This document shows positions 7,222 through 36,769 of a stretch of DNA of 36,769 bases, piece by piece. Each line of letters opens with the position of its first letter. Positions within the stretch are counted from its first letter, which is position 1. Source of the stretch: a virus. The translations under genes were made by a program, and so were the position numbers. The DNA lies in IMG/VR virus record IMGVR_UViG_3300029915_000079, positions 1 to 36,769 of that record; one strand, given 5' to 3'. Under the pieces are notes generated by a model. The model saw only the letters and a list, made by a program, of their open reading frames with translations, was not told the origin of the DNA and made no database searches.

Positions 7222-8517
7222 ATGTTTTTAAATGATGTTACTGGATTTTCTGAAAAATCTCATAGAAAAATAATAGTAGAGTGCGATATTAAATTAAGCG
7301 AAAAATGTAAAAATATTTATAAATCAGATTATAGAACTGGGATGATTTGCCGAGAGAATAATAATGGAAAAGATATATGCTTGAATTGTTCAAGGCAATT
7401 AAAACATTCTGGAAGAAACAATCCAAATTGCAAATATTTATTAGATGATAATTTTTTTAATGAAATTGATTCAGAAGGGAAAGCGTATCTATTGGGATGG
7501 ATTGCAAGTTATGGAGCTATTAATAAAAATGGAGAAATAGCTATTGAAATTCATAATAAAGATACTAAAATATTTAATTCTTTTAATAAAATATTAGGAA
7601 TAAATTTTGCTGCCAAATTACATAAATCACGTCCTATGAAAACATTTAGATTTTGCTCTGGAAAAATTGTTAAAGATATTTGCAAACATTTAGAAATTCC
7701 TCCTGGAGCAAAATCATTTACAGTTCAATTTCCCAAAAGTATTTATTATAATAATTTTTTGGGTTGGGCATTTATACGAGGAGTGTTTGATGGGGATGGT
7801 TCTGTAAATAGACCATGGAATAAACAATCTCATGGATTTTCTTATCCCACAATTAATATAGCTTCAAGCTCTCCAAAATTTAGGGAAGATATATTTTCAT
7901 TTATAAATATTCCTGGAAGGAATGCTGCAAAAAGATCAATATTGGAATGGGATGGAAACAATGCATTAGATGTTTTGGGGAAAATGTATGATAATGCAAA
8001 CTATTATTTAGAAAGAAAATATGAACTTTATTTTCAATGGAAATTATGGGTCCCTGGATTGAGCGGTTCAGGAACTCATAGTAATAATATTCAATTTAAA
8101 TGTGTCAAAACTTGTCAAGATGCAATTTTGCCATCAAAAGCCAATCCAAGCGATTCTGGATATGATTTAACATTGCTTTCAAAAATTAAACAACTGGGTG
8201 ATGTTGAATATTATGATACTGGTATAAAAGCACAAATATCATATGGATATTGGCTAATGATGGCACCAAGAAGTTCCATGTCAAAAACTGGCTATACTTT
8301 TGCTAATGAACTTGGTATAATTGATCGTTCTTATGTAGGAAATATAATTGTGGCTTTGAGAAAGGTTAATAAAGATATGCCAGATATTCAGTTACCTTGC
8401 AAACTTGCTCAATTAATTCCAATTCCTGCAATTCATTGTGGCGAAGTTATAGAAGTTGAATCTTTAGAAGAAAGTAGTCGTGGTTCAGGCGGCTTTGGGT
8501 CAACTGATAGAAAATAG
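7222..8517 (+). CDS. dut: LAGLIDADG homing-endonuclease-like domain fused to dUTPase
   Basis: The C-terminal 145 residues are a trimeric-type dUTPase (dUTP to dUMP and pyrophosphate). They show motif 1 SGYDL, motif 2 PRSSMSKTG, motif 3 NELGIIDRSYVG and the C-terminal motif 5 RGSGGFGSTDRK. The first ~280 residues contain a Cys-rich segment (CDIKLSEKC, CLNC) and two LAGLIDADG-type helices, LLGWIASYGAI (about residue 90) and FIRGVFDGDGSV (about 190), typical of homing endonucleases. The fusion is in frame, with no dUTPase residues before the endonuclease, so it is not an ordinary intein. Either it is a bifunctional protein or the endonuclease has captured the start of the dUTPase gene. dUTPase activity should protect phage DNA from uracil. 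Confidence 0.88.
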   Translation: MFLNDVTGFSEKSHRKIIVECDIKLSEKCKNIYKSDYRTGMICRENNNGKDICLNCSRQLKHSGRNNPNCKYLLDDNFFNEIDSEGKAYLLGWIASYGAINKNGEIAIEIHNKDTKIFNSFNKILGINFAAKLHKSRPMKTFRFCSGKIVKDICKHLEIPPGAKSFTVQFPKSIYYNNFLGWAFIRGVFDGDGSVNRPWNKQSHGFSYPTINIASSSPKFREDIFSFINIPGRNAAKRSILEWDGNNALDVLGKMYDNANYYLERKYELYFQWKLWVPGLSGSGTHSNNIQFKCVKTCQDAILPSKANPSDSGYDLTLLSKIKQLGDVEYYDTGIKAQISYGYWLMMAPRSSMSKTGYTFANELGIIDRSYVGNIIVALRKVNKDMPDIQLPCKLAQLIPIPAIHCGEVIEVESLEESSRGSGGFGSTDRK

Positions 8518-19785: not shown

Positions 19786-19803
19786 GTGTTCCTCCATATA
19801 AAG

Positions 19804-19832
19804 ATAATACCAAAGTTTGGGTTGTTTGTCAA
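19804..19832 (-). promoter_or_regulatory. sigma70-like promoter of membrane peptide
   Basis: TTGACA (19827-19832), 17 bp, TATTAT (19804-19809). Upstream it carries the shared CACTTATTTTCTTATTGAC block. Confidence 0.8.
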
Positions 19833-19862
19833 TAAGAAAATAAGTGCTTTGCTTTGAATATG

Positions 19863-20498
19863 TTAAGACAGCAATTTAGCCATTAATTTGACATTAATTG
19901 TTGGCTTTTTTATGCATTCAATTGCACAACCATTTTGTTGAACAGCAGCCATTTGCACAGCTTCGCTTGGCTTGCTGATGTATTTAATTGCACAACCATC
20001 TTCTTGAACAGCAGCCAGTTGCACAGCTTCGCTTGGTTTGTCGATGTGTTGAATTGCACGACCATCTTGTTGAACAGCAGCCAGTTGCACAGCTTCGCTT
20101 GGCTTGTCGATGTAGTAAATTGCACAACCATATTGTTGAACAGCAGCCATTTGCACAGCTTCGCTTGGCTTGTCGATGTATTGAATTGCACGACTAGTTT
20201 GTTGAACAGCAGCCAGTTGCACAGCTTCGCTTGGCTTGTCGATGTAGTAAATTGCACGACCATATTGTTGAACAGCAGCCATTTGCACAGCTTCGCTTGG
20301 CTTGTCGATGTAGTAAATTGCACGACCATATTGTTGAACAGCAGCCATTTGCACAGCTTCGCTTGGCTTGCTGATGTATTTAATTGCCCAACCATCTTGT
20401 CGAACAGCAGCCATTTGCACAGCTTCGCTTGGCTTGTCGATGTATTTAATTGCACGACCATCTTGTCGAACAGCAGCCAGTTGTGCTTTTTCATCCAT
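19863..20498 (-). CDS. DUF4116 repeat protein, nine repeats
   Basis: The 211-residue product starts MDEKAQLAAVRQDGRAI and consists of nine 22-residue DUF4116 repeats. It ends PTINVKLMAKLLS, a closing helix shared with the genes at 20564 and 31728. Variation between repeats is concentrated at the residues after AAVQ, around x-G-x-AI-x-YI-x, while DNA elsewhere is almost identical. Such a pattern suggests recombination among copies with selection at exposed positions. The message is probably leaderless. Long open frames on both strands here are by-products of the periodicity. Confidence 0.85.
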   Translation of the reverse strand: MDEKAQLAAVRQDGRAIKYIDKPSEAVQMAAVRQDGWAIKYISKPSEAVQMAAVQQYGRAIYYIDKPSEAVQMAAVQQYGRAIYYIDKPSEAVQLAAVQQTSRAIQYIDKPSEAVQMAAVQQYGCAIYYIDKPSEAVQLAAVQQDGRAIQHIDKPSEAVQLAAVQEDGCAIKYISKPSEAVQMAAVQQNGCAIECIKKPTINVKLMAKLLS

Positions 20499-20504
20499 AT
20501 ATAA

Positions 20505-20533
20505 AGAATATCCTAAATAAATTTATTTGTCAA
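20505..20533 (-). promoter_or_regulatory. sigma70-like promoter of DUF4116 gene (leaderless)
   Basis: TTGACA (20528-20533), 17 bp, TATTCT (20505-20510), six bases, ATG at 20498. The sequence is identical to 355-383. Confidence 0.78.
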
Positions 20534-20563
20534 TAAGAAAATAAGTGCTTTGCTTTGAATATG

Positions 20564-20935
20564 TTAAGACAGCAATTTAGCCATTAATTTGACATTAATT
20601 GTTGGCTTTTTTATGAATTGAATTGCCCAACTATCTCGTTGAACAGCAGCCATTTGCACAGTTTCGCTTGGCTTGTCGATGTAGCAAATTGCCCGACTAG
20701 TTTCTTGAACAGCAGCCATTTGCACAGCTTCGCTTGGCTTGTCGATGTGTTGAATTGCACGACCATCTTGTTGAACAGCAGCCAGTTGCACAGCTTCGCT
20801 TGGCTTGTCGATGTAGTAAATTGCACGACCATATTGTTGAACAGCAACCATTTGCACAGCTTCGCTTGGCTTGTCGATGTATTGAATTGCACGATAATTT
20901 CGTTGAACAGCAGCCAGTTGTGCTTTTTCATTCAT
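20564..20935 (-). CDS. DUF4116 repeat protein, five repeats
   Basis: The 123-residue product starts MNEKAQLAAVQRNYRAI and has five DUF4116 repeats with the closing PTINVKLMAKLLS helix. One repeat has KPSETV in place of KPSEAV, shared with the last repeats of the gene at 21645, so the two are recent relatives. The promoter and start have the same leaderless arrangement. The function is unknown. Confidence 0.84.
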   Translation of the reverse strand: MNEKAQLAAVQRNYRAIQYIDKPSEAVQMVAVQQYGRAIYYIDKPSEAVQLAAVQQDGRAIQHIDKPSEAVQMAAVQETSRAICYIDKPSETVQMAAVQRDSWAIQFIKKPTINVKLMAKLLS

Positions 20936-20941
20936 ATATAA

Positions 20942-20970
20942 AGAATATCCTAAATAAATTTATTTGTCAA
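20942..20970 (-). promoter_or_regulatory. sigma70-like promoter of DUF4116 gene (leaderless)
   Basis: TTGACA (20965-20970), 17 bp, TATTCT (20942-20947), six bases, ATG at 20935. Confidence 0.78.
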
Positions 20971-20979
20971 TAAGAAAAT

Positions 20980-21150
20980 AAGTGCTTTGCAATCAACAAT
21001 TTGTAACAAACACAAAACAAAGAGCTTAAAAATGCCTTTTAAGCAATATTATTTGATATATGGCACTTGGACATGTCTGAGGGGCTTAGAGCGGGTTATA
21101 GGGCATTTTTCTTGTTTTTGGGTCTTTAGAATCAATGACTTAAAAAGGTA
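20980..21150. repeat. Two-copy conserved non-coding element, copy 2
   Basis: This stretch shares ordered blocks with 399-570 (AATCAACAATTTGTAAC, ACAAAACAAAG, GGCACTTGGACAT, GGGCTTAGAGCGG, TTATAGGGCA). The longest open frames over it are not conserved with copy 1. It lies between a terminator and the promoter of the DUF4116 gene at 20935. A regulatory RNA or a duplication scar are both possible. Confidence 0.5.
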
Positions 21151-21164
21151 TTTTGGCGTAGCAG

Positions 21165-21193
21165 AAAGCCCCATGACAATCTCATGGGGCTTT
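21165..21193 (-). terminator. Rho-independent terminator
   Basis: A perfect 12-bp stem (21165-21176 with 21182-21193) with a five-base loop lies downstream of the gene ending at 21236. It has T-rich tails on both strands. Confidence 0.75.
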
Positions 21194-21235
21194 TGTTTAC
21201 TTTATGGATGGATTATATATGATAATATGTATAAT

Positions 21236-21547
21236 TTAAATATGAGTATAAAGAGCTGTCTCTTCAGTGAAGATTTTTTGAAGTTGATCACAATAAACAT
21301 CATCAAATGAACTGATAATTTCACGTTTTAACCCATGCGCCGCCATTCGGCAATTTATGAATTCCATCTTGTAAGTATCTGAAGGCATTATAGTTATAAT
21401 CACTTGTGTAATCTTCTTTGCGGCATTTGGAACTTTGAAACTAAGAGAATTTTCGGAGCCAACCAGACCACGAGCGCCAGTCATTACCAAAAAACGAGGG
21501 CCGCCGAGCTGTTCTAGAATCGTCTTTGCAACTGTCATATCAGTCAT
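21236..21547 (-). CDS. Conserved hypothetical protein
   Basis: The 103-residue product has the segments EQLGGPRFLVMTGARGLV, LSFKVPNAAKKITQVIITIMPSDTYKMEF and a C-terminal DDVYCDQLQKIFTEETAL. I recognise this as a hypothetical protein family common on phages and plasmids, with no known function. It has its own promoter, a GGAGAG ribosome-binding site and a terminator, so it is an independent single-gene unit between DUF4116 genes. Confidence 0.8.
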   Translation of the reverse strand: MTDMTVAKTILEQLGGPRFLVMTGARGLVGSENSLSFKVPNAAKKITQVIITIMPSDTYKMEFINCRMAAHGLKREIISSFDDVYCDQLQKIFTEETALYTHI

Positions 21548-21565
21548 ATACTCTCCAATAAATAT

Positions 21566-21594
21566 ATTGTATCAAAGGTTAAGAGTAAAGTCAA
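21566..21594 (-). promoter_or_regulatory. sigma70-like promoter
   Basis: TTGACT (21589-21594), 17 bp, TACAAT (21566-21571), with the shared CACTTATTTTCTTATTGAC block ending in its -35 box. Confidence 0.75.
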
Positions 21595-21644
21595 TAAGAA
21601 AATAAGTGCTTTGTTTTGAATATTTTAAGACAGCAATTTAGCCA

Positions 21645-22127
21645 TTAATTTGACATTAATTGTTGGCTTTTTATGAATTGAATTGCCCAATAATTTCGTT
21701 GAACAGCAGCCATTTGCACAGTTTCGCTTGGCTTGTCGATGTAGCAAATTGCCCAACTATCTTCTTGAACAGCAGCCATTTGCACAGCTTCGCTTGGCTT
21801 GCTGATGTATTCAATTGCACGACCATATTGTTGAACAGCAGCCATTTGCACAGCTTCGCTTGGCTTGTCGATGTATTCAATTGCATAACCATTTTGTTGA
21901 ACAGCAGCCAGTTGCACAGCTTCGCTTGGCTTGTCGATGTAGTAAATTGCCCGACCATTTTGTTGAACAGCAGCCATTTGCACAGCTTCGCTTGGCTTGC
22001 TGATGTATTCAATTGCACAACCATTTTGTTGAACAGCAGCCATTTGCATAGCTTCGCTTGGCTTGTCGATGTATTGAATTGCATAACCATTTTGTTGAAC
22101 AGCAGCCAGTTGTGCTTTTTCATTCAT
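21645..22127 (-). CDS. DUF4116 repeat protein, frameshifted C-terminus
   Basis: This gene has seven DUF4116 repeats from ATG 22127. Its last residues are IKSQQLMSN instead of the usual IKKPTINVKLMAKLLS. The cause is visible: a run of five T at 21668-21672 where the sister genes have six. Restoring one base would extend the frame to a stop at 21625 and give the standard ending. It is either a real frameshift or a homopolymer sequencing/assembly error. Promoter and start are as in the sister genes. Confidence 0.8.
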   Translation of the reverse strand: MNEKAQLAAVQQNGYAIQYIDKPSEAMQMAAVQQNGCAIEYISKPSEAVQMAAVQQNGRAIYYIDKPSEAVQLAAVQQNGYAIEYIDKPSEAVQMAAVQQYGRAIEYISKPSEAVQMAAVQEDSWAICYIDKPSETVQMAAVQRNYWAIQFIKSQQLMSN

Positions 22128-22133
22128 ATATAA

Positions 22134-27002: not shown

Positions 27003-27039
27003 ATAAAATTGTCCTATATGCAGTGATCTACTGAGTTGT

Positions 27040-27372
27040 TAAAGGAAATTTTATAGTTCCGTTTCTTTTACAAGGACGGAACAACTCCTCGGAGTAAAGC
27101 TTATTAGGCGTTTACTAGCTCAGTGTTGCGGAGATTCACAGAATACGTGAAAATCTTTGCACTGCCATTGATACCAGAGGTAGCAATTATTGTTTATGTG
27201 TCCATTTACGATGGCCACACCAGTCGGCTCGTCAGTAGTCCAACCACACGTCAATCGATACCATGACAGGCCCAAATAAAACATTGAATCATAAATTTGG
27301 TGGACCTGACCGGAGTTGAACCGGTGTGTTGTCCGTTGATTTTATACTGTCCTTTCACGAGCGTTATTTAAC
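27040..27372 (-). ncRNA. ssrA: Circularly permuted tmRNA
   Basis: On the minus strand the 3' half comes first: T-arm 27309-27325 (ACCGG, loop TTCAACT, CCGGT), acceptor strand CAGGTCC (27302-27308), A73, and encoded CCA (27298-27300). A 24-base AT-rich spacer follows, then the 5' half: GGGCCTG (27267-27273), which pairs with CAGGTCC in seven pairs including G3-U70, the alanine identity element. Next come GGTATCGATTGACG, resembling the tmRNA D-loop region, and a hairpin near 27197-27220. Then an 18-codon tag frame (27101-27160) from GCA ends in TAATAA inside a stem-loop (AGTAAA/TTTACT), and a last hairpin at 27056-27082. This order is that of two-piece permuted tmRNAs. The ends are approximate. 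Confidence 0.82.
27101..27160 (-). other. tmRNA tag reading frame
   Basis: From resume codon GCA (27158-27160) the frame encodes AKIFTYSVNLRNTELVNA and ends in two TAA codons. The stop codons lie in the loop closed by AGTAAA/TTTACT. The tag is longer than that of E. coli, and its ending -LVNA differs from the common -LAA. Confidence 0.65.
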
Positions 27373-27384: not shown

Positions 27385-28013
27385 TCCTTAAAAACTTTTT
27401 GCTTTGCAGCCAAATCATATGTCTCATCACTTACATATGATAATTCACCAAATCCGTCCAATGAATATCCAATCAGTTGAGCAAATTGCTCACGATCTTC
27501 ATTTGAGAAATTCATAATAGCCAGAGAATTCATGTCTGCTATGCCTTTTTGTGTTGCAATGTCAATAAGATAGCTAACAATAGCATTTTCTTTAAATCTG
27601 GTTGTTCCAACTTTGTCGCTAACTAATGGTTGTATTGGATGAGTTGCTTTCATTATTTTTACACCAAGTTCTTTCTTTAAAGCATTAAATTCTTCTAATT
27701 TTATTGAACGTTCAGACTTTTTCTTGCTATTATCAAGATCATTTTTATAAATTTTTGCGACGGCAACAGGATCAGCAGCATCAAAAATTGACTTTGGGAG
27801 AGTAATAGAATCTGAGCAGTTACATCCAGCAGCCCTCCAGCTATAGTTCACAATTACATGAGTTTCATTTGACCATACATCGTCGTAATGATCATTATTC
27901 AAATTAAATACAGACAATACTTCTGTGATTAAACCATAAAATTCTTCACGTTTAATAGAAGCATTTTCCTCTGCTTTATCTAATTGTTTCTTCAGTTTAT
28001 CAAAGTTACTCAT
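27381..28013 (-). CDS. Hypothetical protein, 210 aa
   Basis: An N-terminal coiled coil (FDKLKKQLDKAEENASIKRE) precedes a domain with WSNETHVIVNYSWRAAGCNC; a long helix with Lys/Glu follows. No known family is recognised. It overlaps the RlmN-like gene by four bases (ATGA) and is co-transcribed with it. Confidence 0.7.
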   Translation of the reverse strand: MSNFDKLKKQLDKAEENASIKREEFYGLITEVLSVFNLNNDHYDDVWSNETHVIVNYSWRAAGCNCSDSITLPKSIFDAADPVAVAKIYKNDLDNSKKKSERSIKLEEFNALKKELGVKIMKATHPIQPLVSDKVGTTRFKENAIVSYLIDIATQKGIADMNSLAIMNFSNEDREQFAQLIGYSLDGFGELSYVSDETYDLAAKQKVFKE

Positions 28014-28978
28014 AAATAAGTCTCTTTATAATCAACCAGCGGAAGCGTTCCACTTAAAATGGCATTTCCACAAGTGATCCTACCTAAATCCTCTTCTACG
28101 GAAGCGATGAAAGTGAGCACATCATACCCTGCCTTCTTCAAAGCATCCTCGTGGTGGATGTACGGATGGAAGTCAGTGTAATCACCTTCCGTTTGAATCC
28201 CGTTATCAAGAGCAGTGTGCGTCTTATGCATCGGAGTTAGCTTGCACACGTAAAGCGATGGATCGAAGTAGTTCAATAGCACGGTTGGATCAATCTCGTA
28301 ACCGGCAACAGCGAAATTGAGAGTGATCTTTCTTCCTACAGGAATAATTCCTTCCATAATCCTTGCGATCTCTTCAAACGTGCAAGCGTTGTTATGAAAC
28401 ATCTTGTCGCGCTCACTCTTACTCGTTGAGTTGATCGACAGTTGAAGTCCTGCATTTCCGTTGTACAAACGGTTCTTCATCCTCATCCAGTTGTGGATGA
28501 ATGTCTTCAACCAGATATTCCTACGCGGCATCATTGTTGACACTACTGGATGAATATGAAAAGTGTCGTTCATGTGAGTATGGAGCCACTTTCCACAATC
28601 AAGGACGTTAGGATTCCAAGTAGGTTCTCCCATTCTGGCGAAGTGAACATTCAATCTCTTTGTGCCAGTAATTTCTGGATGAAGTTTTAGCGCACACAAA
28701 ATTTGACCAGTGAGATCGTAAAAAGACGCATTCTTTCCAGGTCCAACTTTGGGGCAATCGCAAAAACTACATCCCATACTGCACCCAAATTGCGTTGACA
28801 CTGTAATTACCCATTTTTCTGTTAAAGGCATAATTTCTTGGTGAGCAACAGCTTTGTGTTGATTCAAATTTACATCTTGCCCATAATCTCCGAGAGATAA
28901 AAATTCAATTTTCCCTTCACTACCTTGAGCAATACAAATATGGCCAGTTGGAACTTCAAGCAATCTTTCGATCTTCAT
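28010..28978 (-). CDS. RlmN/Cfr-like radical SAM enzyme
   Basis: The 4Fe-4S motif is CSMGCSFC (C-x3-C-x2-C), as in RlmN/Cfr. Other features are HFARMGEPTWN (MGEP motif), PVVSTMMPRRN, LQLSINST, LTPMHKTH and a C-terminal DLGRITCGNA segment, whose cysteine corresponds to the methyl-carrying cysteine of RlmN. RlmN methylates A2503 of 23S rRNA and A37 of some tRNAs. At 322 residues it is shorter than host RlmN at the N-terminus, so the target may differ. GC content is higher than in its neighbours. Confidence 0.82.
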   Translation of the reverse strand: MKIERLLEVPTGHICIAQGSEGKIEFLSLGDYGQDVNLNQHKAVAHQEIMPLTEKWVITVSTQFGCSMGCSFCDCPKVGPGKNASFYDLTGQILCALKLHPEITGTKRLNVHFARMGEPTWNPNVLDCGKWLHTHMNDTFHIHPVVSTMMPRRNIWLKTFIHNWMRMKNRLYNGNAGLQLSINSTSKSERDKMFHNNACTFEEIARIMEGIIPVGRKITLNFAVAGYEIDPTVLLNYFDPSLYVCKLTPMHKTHTALDNGIQTEGDYTDFHPYIHHEDALKKAGYDVLTFIASVEEDLGRITCGNAILSGTLPLVDYKETYL

Positions 28979-30310: not shown

Positions 30311-30337
30311 GCGGAGACAGGATTTACCTGTCTCCGC
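30311..30337 (-). terminator. Terminator overlapping end of CCA-enzyme gene
   Basis: An 11-bp perfect stem (30311-30321 with 30327-30337) is followed on the minus strand by TTTATTTT. Its 5' arm encodes the last residues (GGDR) and the stop codon is in the loop. Confidence 0.75.
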
Positions 30338-31649
30338 CAGTCAAAGATTCAACGAAAAATACAGCTTCGTCACGAGTTGTTACACGCCCGTCAAGCTGCG
30401 CATTTTCGAGTGCAGTAAGCAAAGTCTTAAACATCGGGCCAGGCTTCAACCCCATTGCCTGCAAATCGTTTCCAGTAAGCAGACGAACAGGATTCAAAGA
30501 CTCTTCAGTGACACTTGCAAGAAAATCAACAGCAAAATTGAAATCAGTGAGATCACCATTACTGCAAAGACTATCAAGACGATTCAGTTCAAGCAATTCG
30601 CTGAAATTTTCCTGACGAACGAATCTCTTCAACTTGGAATCATTCATCTTCGTTACGTTGAAAAACTTCATGTGCTGAGAAACAAGGCTGCTAACAGCAT
30701 CTACAACTTCATTTGAAAATCGAAGATTGCGAAGCATCTTTGCAGCCATTTCAGCACCGACTGTTTCGTGGCCAAAAAACTGATTTTCACCAGTCTTTAC
30801 GTTACGAACAGCAGTTGTTGGTTTTGCCACATCATGAAGAAGGACAGACAAGGCAAGAGTGACGCTGCAATTCGCAGGAAGCTTAGACAGCATGAGCAGA
30901 GTATGCTGAAAAACATCTCCTTCTGGATGAAATTTGCTATTTTGATCCACACCACGCATTGCATTGACTTCAGGCAAAACATGCTGAAGCAATCCAGTGT
31001 TGTCCATAAGCTTGAAAGCAACATTGACATTGCCACCAGTCAGCATCTTGACAAGTTCTCCGCTAACACGATCAGGCGGAAGAGTTTCAACAGAAAAAGC
31101 CCTCTTTTCTATTGCTTCATGAGTTTCCCGATCAAATCGAAGATTAAATCGCGCTGCGAAACGGACAGCTCGAAGTAAACGCAATGCATCTTCAGTGAAA
31201 CGAGTTTCAGGATTTCCAACAGCCCGGAGCAAACCATTCTGCAAATCAGTCTGTCCACCAACAAAATCGTAAACATTTCCGTTTCGATCCATGAGCAAAG
31301 CATTCATGGTAAAATCTCTTCTAGCAACATCTTCTTCAGCAGACAAAGTGAAGTCCACAAAATCTGGGCGGCGATTATCGCTATAATCTCCATCACGACG
31401 GAATCGCGCAACTTCAAATGTTTCTCCATTGTATTCAACAAGAGAAACGCCAAAATTTTCTCCCACCATCTTTGTATTGGGAAAGAGAGAATCCACGACT
31501 TCAGCAGGGGCAGAAGTAGTTACATCCCAATCGTGTGGAGTCAAGCCAAGAAGCAAATCTCTGACCGCGCCCCCGCATAAAAAGGCATCGTACCCTGCAT
31601 TTTCAAGAGTCTCCATTACTGCCAGCGCATTTTGATTCATCTTGGTCAT
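30324..31649 (-). CDS. cca: CCA-adding tRNA nucleotidyltransferase with HD domain
   Basis: Start 31649 (MTKMNQNALAV) has GGAGAAAA upstream. The head domain shows FLCGGAVRDLL and HDWDVTT (metal-binding D-x-D), RRDFTMNAL and the EDALRLLRAVRFAARF motif. These are signatures of class II CCA-adding enzymes. The C-terminal half contains an HD domain (LLHDVAKP), which acts as a phosphohydrolase in related enzymes. It would repair or add the CCA end of tRNAs, and possibly the tmRNA here, although that gene encodes its own CCA. GC content is higher than in its neighbours. Confidence 0.93.
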   Translation of the reverse strand: MTKMNQNALAVMETLENAGYDAFLCGGAVRDLLLGLTPHDWDVTTSAPAEVVDSLFPNTKMVGENFGVSLVEYNGETFEVARFRRDGDYSDNRRPDFVDFTLSAEEDVARRDFTMNALLMDRNGNVYDFVGGQTDLQNGLLRAVGNPETRFTEDALRLLRAVRFAARFNLRFDRETHEAIEKRAFSVETLPPDRVSGELVKMLTGGNVNVAFKLMDNTGLLQHVLPEVNAMRGVDQNSKFHPEGDVFQHTLLMLSKLPANCSVTLALSVLLHDVAKPTTAVRNVKTGENQFFGHETVGAEMAAKMLRNLRFSNEVVDAVSSLVSQHMKFFNVTKMNDSKLKRFVRQENFSELLELNRLDSLCSNGDLTDFNFAVDFLASVTEESLNPVRLLTGNDLQAMGLKPGPMFKTLLTALENAQLDGRVTTRDEAVFFVESLTGGDR

Positions 31650-31668
31650 AGTTTTCTCCACTAAAATA

Positions 31669-31697
31669 AGTATACTAAACTTTAGGTGATTTGTCAA
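31669..31697 (-). promoter_or_regulatory. sigma70-like promoter of CCA enzyme
   Basis: TTGACA (31692-31697), 17 bp, TATACT (31669-31674). The leader is about 13 bases with GGAGAAAA. The shared CACTTATTTTCTTATTGAC block is upstream. Confidence 0.82.
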
Positions 31698-36216: not shown

Positions 36217-36769
36217 TTATCTTTTCCTTATGTATTTAATTGGACGACCATATTGTTGAACAGCAGCCATTTGCACAGCTTCGCTTGGTTTGTCGATGTA
36301 TTTAATTGCACGACCATCTTGTTGAACAGCAGCCAGTTGCACAGCTTCGCTTGGCTTGTCGATGTATTGAATTGCATAACAATCTTGTTGAACAGCAGCC
36401 AGTTGCACAGCTTCGCTTGGCTTGTCGATGTATTGAATTGCATAACAATATTGTCGAACAGCAGCCAGTTGCACAGCTTCGCTTGGATTTCCGATGTATT
36501 CAATTGCACAACTATTTCGTTGAACAGCAGCCAGTTGCACAGCTTCGCTTGGATTGCTGATGTGGTAAATTGCATAACCATTTTGTTGAACAACAGCCAG
36601 TTGCACAGCTTCGCTTGGCTTGTCGATGTATTTAATTGCACGACCATTTTGTTGAACAGCAGCCAGTTGCACAGCTTCGCTTGGCTTGCTGATGTATTGA
36701 ATTACCCAACCATTTTGTTGAACAGCAGCCAGTTGCACAGCTTCGCTTGGCTTGTCGATGTATTTAATT
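36217..36769 (-). CDS. DUF4116 repeat protein, 5' end outside window
   Basis: The frame is open to the right edge. Eight full repeats and part of a ninth are visible, and the C-terminus is GRPIKYIRKR without the usual PTINVKLMAKLLS helix. Repeats use DKP, SKP, SNP and GNP before the SEAV core. Its end lies four bases before the phosphoesterase gene. It may be truncated at its 3' end by recombination with that gene's upstream region. Confidence 0.82.
   Translation of the reverse strand, partial: IKYIDKPSEAVQLAAVQQNGWVIQYISKPSEAVQLAAVQQNGRAIKYIDKPSEAVQLAVVQQNGYAIYHISNPSEAVQLAAVQRNSCAIEYIGNPSEAVQLAAVRQYCYAIQYIDKPSEAVQLAAVQQDCYAIQYIDKPSEAVQLAAVQQDGRAIKYIDKPSEAVQMAAVQQYGRPIKYIRKR

Follow-up and report, generated by a model that had tools for sequence, protein, structure and literature searches.

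A permuted (two-piece) tmRNA gene lies on the minus strand of a 36,769-nucleotide viral stretch (IMG/VR record IMGVR_UViG_3300029915_000079, the whole of which is called the window here), and the evidence supports the reading that a phage encodes a tmRNA of this permuted form. In our judgement the locus is probably a circularly permuted ssrA gene, complete in its parts and belonging to a large tailed phage, where it most likely forms part of a translation kit. ARAGORN, which is independent of the Rfam model, calls a tmRNA* at 27394-27013 with the tag ATSGINGSAKIFTYSVNLRNTELVNA followed by two stops, and RF04321 (tmRNA_permuted), the unified permuted tmRNA model of Rfam, matches at 73.1 bits against a curated cutoff of 47 bits (E 2.3e-12 for the whole window plus the library). 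Both results agree with the first-pass annotation, which had read a circularly permuted tmRNA on this strand; it had placed the gene at 27040-27372, the right locus, although the RNA extent is slightly different (about 27365 to 27020).

The search with tmRNA covariance models that had been proposed puts the gene above the cutoff of RF04321 and below that of beta_tmRNA (RF01850), the best of the older subtype models, which scores 39.2 bits over the tRNA-like core against its cutoff of 84 bits; because of this score, the gene is not assignable to the bacterial beta lineage. Permuted order and a tRNA-like domain are common to both models and the gene. On the post-tag part, beta_tmRNA gives a weak match (13.3 bits, E 0.094) in the right order relative to the core. 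The standard one-piece model RF00023 reaches 15.3 bits against a cutoff of 47, with no full-length match in standard order.

Read along the minus strand, the P2 5' strands come first, then the T-arm and the acceptor 3' strand with ACCA; a 24-nt spacer separates these from the acceptor 5' strand, after which come a D-loop-like segment, the P2 3' strands, a PK1-like region, the tag ORF and the post-tag stem-loops. The features are as follows.

About 27365-27020, minus: permuted (two-piece) tmRNA gene (ARAGORN and RF04321).
27298..27365, minus: tRNA-like (3') piece, with P2 5' strands, T-arm, acceptor 3' strand, A73 and encoded CCA (RF04321 alignment, coordinates, pairing).
27357..27362, minus: P2a 5' strand GCUCGU, pairing with ACGAGC (27232-27227).
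27345..27349, minus: P2b 5' strand CAGUA, pairing with UACUG (27237-27233).
27339-27335, minus: next P2 segment UCAAC, pairing with GUUGG (27244-27240).
27309..27325, minus: T-arm, canonical, with stem ACCGG/CCGGU and loop UUCAACU (RF04321 alignment, pairing).
27302..27308, minus: acceptor 3' strand CAGGUCC, followed by A73 (27301) and CCA (27300-27298).
27274..27297, minus: intervening segment, 24 nt (coordinates), the expected target of tRNA-processing enzymes, leaving two RNA pieces.
27267..27273, minus: acceptor 5' strand GGGCCUG, with the G3-U70 wobble (RF04321 alignment, pairing).
27020..27273, minus: mRNA-like (5') piece, with acceptor 5' strand, D-loop-like segment, P2 3' strands, PK1-like region, tag ORF and post-tag stem-loops (3' end approximate).
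27197..27221, minus: PK1-like region GGUGUGGCCAUCGUAAAUGGACACA, common to phage Tunturi_5.
27107..27184, minus: tag reading frame ATSGINGSAKIFTYSVNLRNTELVNA, 26 codons, first codon GCU at 27184 (ARAGORN, translation).
27101..27106, minus: tandem stops UAA UAA (sequence).
27033..27087, minus: post-tag stem-loops GUUCCGU/ACGGAAC, or alternatively GAGUUGUU/AACAACUC, with CCUUGU; this stretch bears a weak resemblance to the 3' part of beta_tmRNA.
30324..31697, minus: gene for a CCA-adding enzyme (tRNA nucleotidyltransferase), as context.

The encoded order is thus a tRNA-like 3' half, the spacer and a 5' half with the tag frame, and acceptor stem, T-arm, P2 and tag frame are all intact. That T-arm, acceptor strand and CCA come ahead of the 5' acceptor strand had been noticed in the first-pass annotation, and the pairing that it gave is complete: GGGCCTG (27273-27267) and CAGGTCC (27308-27302) pair at seven of seven positions, with the G3-U70 wobble and A73 both present as described. 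The T-stem pairs at 5 of 5 positions, and the P2 helix joining the two pieces is long, with perfect segments. The tmRNA-like D-loop sequence reported for the 5' half was also found, as the D-loop-like segment UGGUAUCGA after the acceptor 5' strand. In viral relatives the spacer measures 10-38 nt (the scan pattern allowed 10-40).

The tag is placed from GCU 27184 on the grounds that the resume context there, AAUAAUUGCU, lines up with the consensus. An 18-codon tag from GCA had been read previously; this GCA (27160) is in frame but eight codons late, and the tag has 26 codons, with the TAATAA end of the frame standing as read. The tag ends in ...VNA, the usual ending being AA, and an NA ending also occurs in other viral permuted tmRNAs (L063, L130). 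Unusually long tags (24-34 aa) are seen in a subset of viral permuted tmRNAs (L049, L080, L097, L099, L101, L116 and others); several of these contain a motif resembling AKV(L/I)xF or VKVSMG, and a typical viral tag has about 10-15 aa. A 'late promoter box' had also been claimed just before the gene. The sequence concerned, AATAAATA at 27385, is one mismatch from TATAAATA and not above chance; it is no evidence for such a box, because exact TATAAATA is not enriched in the window (8 copies against about 11.6 in shuffles) and 183 sites match it with at most one mismatch. A sigma-70 scan gave 3 promoter-like sites against 3.4 in shuffles, a terminator scan found none, and no riboswitch match was found at the gene.

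Thermodynamic folding gives a different picture from the covariance model. Folded as a single strand, the precursor core reaches a minimum free energy (MFE) that does not improve on shuffles (z -0.76), with a preferred fold that has no T-arm, and in cofolding an alternative structure is favoured by about 4 kcal/mol; tRNA-like folds and pseudoknots are poorly predicted by both methods. Since the tmRNA fold does not stand out in single-strand folding, the case for a permuted tmRNA is built on the covariance model and on comparative pairing rather than on MFE. The comparative pairing was obtained by scanning viral contigs for a pattern in which invariant bases alone were fixed. At least 119 viral stretches carry the permuted signature, which is a sign of abundance and not a number of lineages, the collection being not dereplicated and possibly including prophages or some bacterial DNA; ARAGORN finds a tmRNA in 103 among the matches listed. 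The acceptor and T-stem positions that the pattern left free are paired in all 55 distinct viral combinations listed, against ~24-37 in shuffles.

The first-pass annotation had suggested that a permuted tmRNA in a phage would be new. Alongside the viral contigs just described, two-piece tmRNAs have already been published for dozens of phages besides Methylophilales phage Melnitz, which has one too (PMC9004378); the window gene is a new example, not a new kind. In that 2022 study, 402 of 18,146 phages carried a tmRNA, with 133 unique structures of which 53 were two-piece by ARAGORN (2021 phage database), and the two-piece structures were mostly marine or aquatic (PMC9004378). The tmRNA of Melnitz is phage-encoded and permuted, as in the window, and is of a type unlike its host's; it differs in being of the alphaproteobacterial type and reported under a glutamine riboswitch (PMC9004378), whereas the window gene has beta_tmRNA as its best older model, a 26-aa tag and no riboswitch match. 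RF04321 itself comes from a study listing 79 phage tmRNA sequences (PMC11915505). Alcaligenes phage QDWS595 (L329; tag ANDNVYAAAA) and Acinetobacter phage BUCT628 (L330; tag ANDNVFGAKTLAA) were also seen to have permuted tmRNAs, each scoring over the cutoffs of RF04321 and of beta_tmRNA alike, and the Brevundimonas jumbo phages Kikimora and Kabachok (L328, L331) score 57-58 bits with RF04321 without an ARAGORN call; all four are unannotated in the stretches examined.

The window overlaps a separate 127-kb viral contig at 99.99-100% identity, with an essentially identical tmRNA copy, and the phage is large, at least 127 kb in size. This contig has 29 tRNA genes. A T4-type clamp loader gene elsewhere in the window is most similar to those of PA5oct-like jumbo phages. 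No match to SmpB (PF01668) was found in the 127-kb contig, whose genome is possibly incomplete, or in 11 other phage records; because no phage SmpB gene was found, use of the host's SmpB is presumed. Elsewhere in the window, the plus-strand frame at 7222-8517 (431 aa) encodes a dUTPase with an N-terminal LAGLIDADG-endonuclease-like region, either intein-like or a fused homing endonuclease. The two contig ends and a central stretch (1-410, 19800-22130, 36228-36769) have repetitive frames with long similar repeats in common, about 87-93% identical, which are probably the reason why the assembly stops where it does. The minus-strand frame at 28010-28978 encodes a conserved phage protein (phrog_24834) with 48.5% identity to a Bacteroides phage Versailles protein annotated as radical SAM. 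Two phage contigs (L150/L151, from G002 and G005) have this protein at 77-78% identity and a standard one-piece tmRNA with the tag AEFEELPLAA beside a tRNA array; among the relatives searched via this protein, a standard tmRNA over the cutoff was found only in these two. Sharing about 10 proteins, these contigs are too remotely related for a test of conservation.

The closest subtype mates of the window tmRNA are those of Acidobacteriota phage Tunturi_5 and of one 20-kb contig (L097), the third member of the subtype. Among cultured phages, Tunturi_5 (309 kb, Acidobacteriota host) comes nearest in both tmRNA subtype and CCA enzyme. Its permuted tmRNA is unannotated, lies at L003:3860-4156 (PP885688.1), scores 86.4 bits with RF04321 and is missed by ARAGORN; its tag, read by hand, is AKNSPVVRGTAKVLSFARKFVPAVSSTRAFAMAA. 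The two genes have in common a 53-nt P2/PK1 segment at 88.7% identity, a GCUxGU/ACxAGC helix in which P2a GCUAGU/ACUAGC against GCUCGU/ACGAGC is a compensatory change, and long tags with a similar GTAKV/GSAKI motif, and the CCA-adding enzymes are 44.7% identical. Tunturi_5 differs in its 34-aa tag ending AMAA, against the window's 26-aa tag ending VNA, and in its gene neighbourhood, with only about 14 proteins common to the 127-kb contig at about 42% identity. A search of the species genomes of 84,980 bacteria and archaea for the shared subtype motif GGTGTGGCCNNCGTRAANGGACA found no exact copy. The host family of Tunturi_5 was sampled through Edaphobacter lichenicola, which we take to be linked to Tunturiibacter by reclassification. 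The tmRNA form of Tunturi_5 differs from that of this host family, since none of 150 genomes has a permuted match and the genomes examined have a one-piece tmRNA, mostly with the tag AEPQFALAA.

Three other readings of the locus have to be weighed. It is very improbable that the RF04321 match is a model artefact, in which an ordinary tRNA stands ahead of a standard tmRNA's 5' half, even though this decoy is real: eight inspected Acidobacteriota loci (L320-L327) proved to be standard tmRNAs scoring 55.5-71.7 bits, with a tRNA-Asp directly upstream in seven and no neighbouring tRNA in one. An apparent permuted tmRNA in 13 of 396 Acidobacteriota genomes was accordingly rejected, since 8 of the 13 were inspected and were these standard tmRNAs, 7 of them beside a tRNA. 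The artefact is excluded for the window because ARAGORN finds no other tRNA or tmRNA there, upstream or elsewhere, because no further T-loop motif or second T-arm lies near the gene or downstream of the tag, and because the acceptor strand of the T-arm matches the 5' end of the tmRNA at 7 of 7 positions. A recently captured, decaying gene, a passenger or pseudogene without function, is improbable rather than negligible. Many other viral permuted tmRNAs score above 100 bits with RF04321 and the window gene is well below them, lower than most viral relatives tested, and an almost identical copy is its only sequenced close relative; against decay, the seven acceptor pairs, five T-stem pairs, P2 segments and open tag frame with two stops are all intact, the P2a change relative to Tunturi_5 is compensatory, and the phage has kept 29 tRNAs and a CCA enzyme.

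The remaining reading accepts a genuine permuted tmRNA and makes interference its main role: it would compete with the host's own tmRNA for stalled ribosomes or for SmpB, or would add a tag poorly handled by host proteases so that tagged proteins escape normal degradation. We regard it as unlikely, though not far-fetched. The length of the window tag and its VNA ending in place of the usual AA would fit, as would the gene form of Tunturi_5, the closest subtype relative, being unlike its host family's. A precedent is the phage-encoded tmRNA derivative of DS6A, reported in PMC11915505 to be a gene without a tag frame that inhibits endogenous tmRNA in E. coli. Unlike that DS6A gene, the window gene keeps a complete tag frame with tandem stops, and the tags of Tunturi_5 and L097 end in the usual type, MAA. 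A related proposal, which we hold to be speculative and rather unlikely, is that the window phage, Tunturi_5 and L097 form a phage-specific permuted sub-lineage with long tags, diverged from bacterial tmRNAs and working in hosts with one-piece tmRNAs, where it might mark proteins for some fate that is not normal degradation or might take the place of the host's tmRNA.

The likely function of the window tmRNA is to rescue ribosomes together with the host's SmpB. In the established pathway of two-piece tmRNAs, cuts in the precursor at the CCA and the acceptor G yield two pieces that remain paired. The RNA is then charged by alanyl-tRNA synthetase and carried by SmpB and EF-Tu to stalled ribosomes, where translation resumes on the first tag codon and the tag is added. 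For the window gene, a single precursor would carry the tRNA-like 3' half, the spacer and then the 5' half. We infer that tRNA-processing enzymes, supplied by host or phage, would remove the 24-nt spacer and that the two RNAs would stay joined through the acceptor stem and P2. The host alanyl-tRNA synthetase would then charge the RNA through G3-U70, and host SmpB and EF-Tu would bring it to ribosomes stalled in infection, where translation may resume on GCU, add the 26-residue tag ending ...VNA and leave the ribosome free. The tmRNA would most likely act within the phage's translation kit of 29 tRNAs and a CCA-adding enzyme, keeping ribosomes usable while host RNAs are degraded.

The decoy pattern should be useful as a filter in automated RF04321 annotation. 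The window gene adds a well-supported case of a phage-carried ribosome-rescue RNA, and the pair that it makes with Tunturi_5 suggests that there is a group of large phages with a permuted, long-tag tmRNA whose motif has no exact match in the bacterial genomes scanned. It also raises a testable question, namely why a phage should carry a tmRNA when its host already has one.
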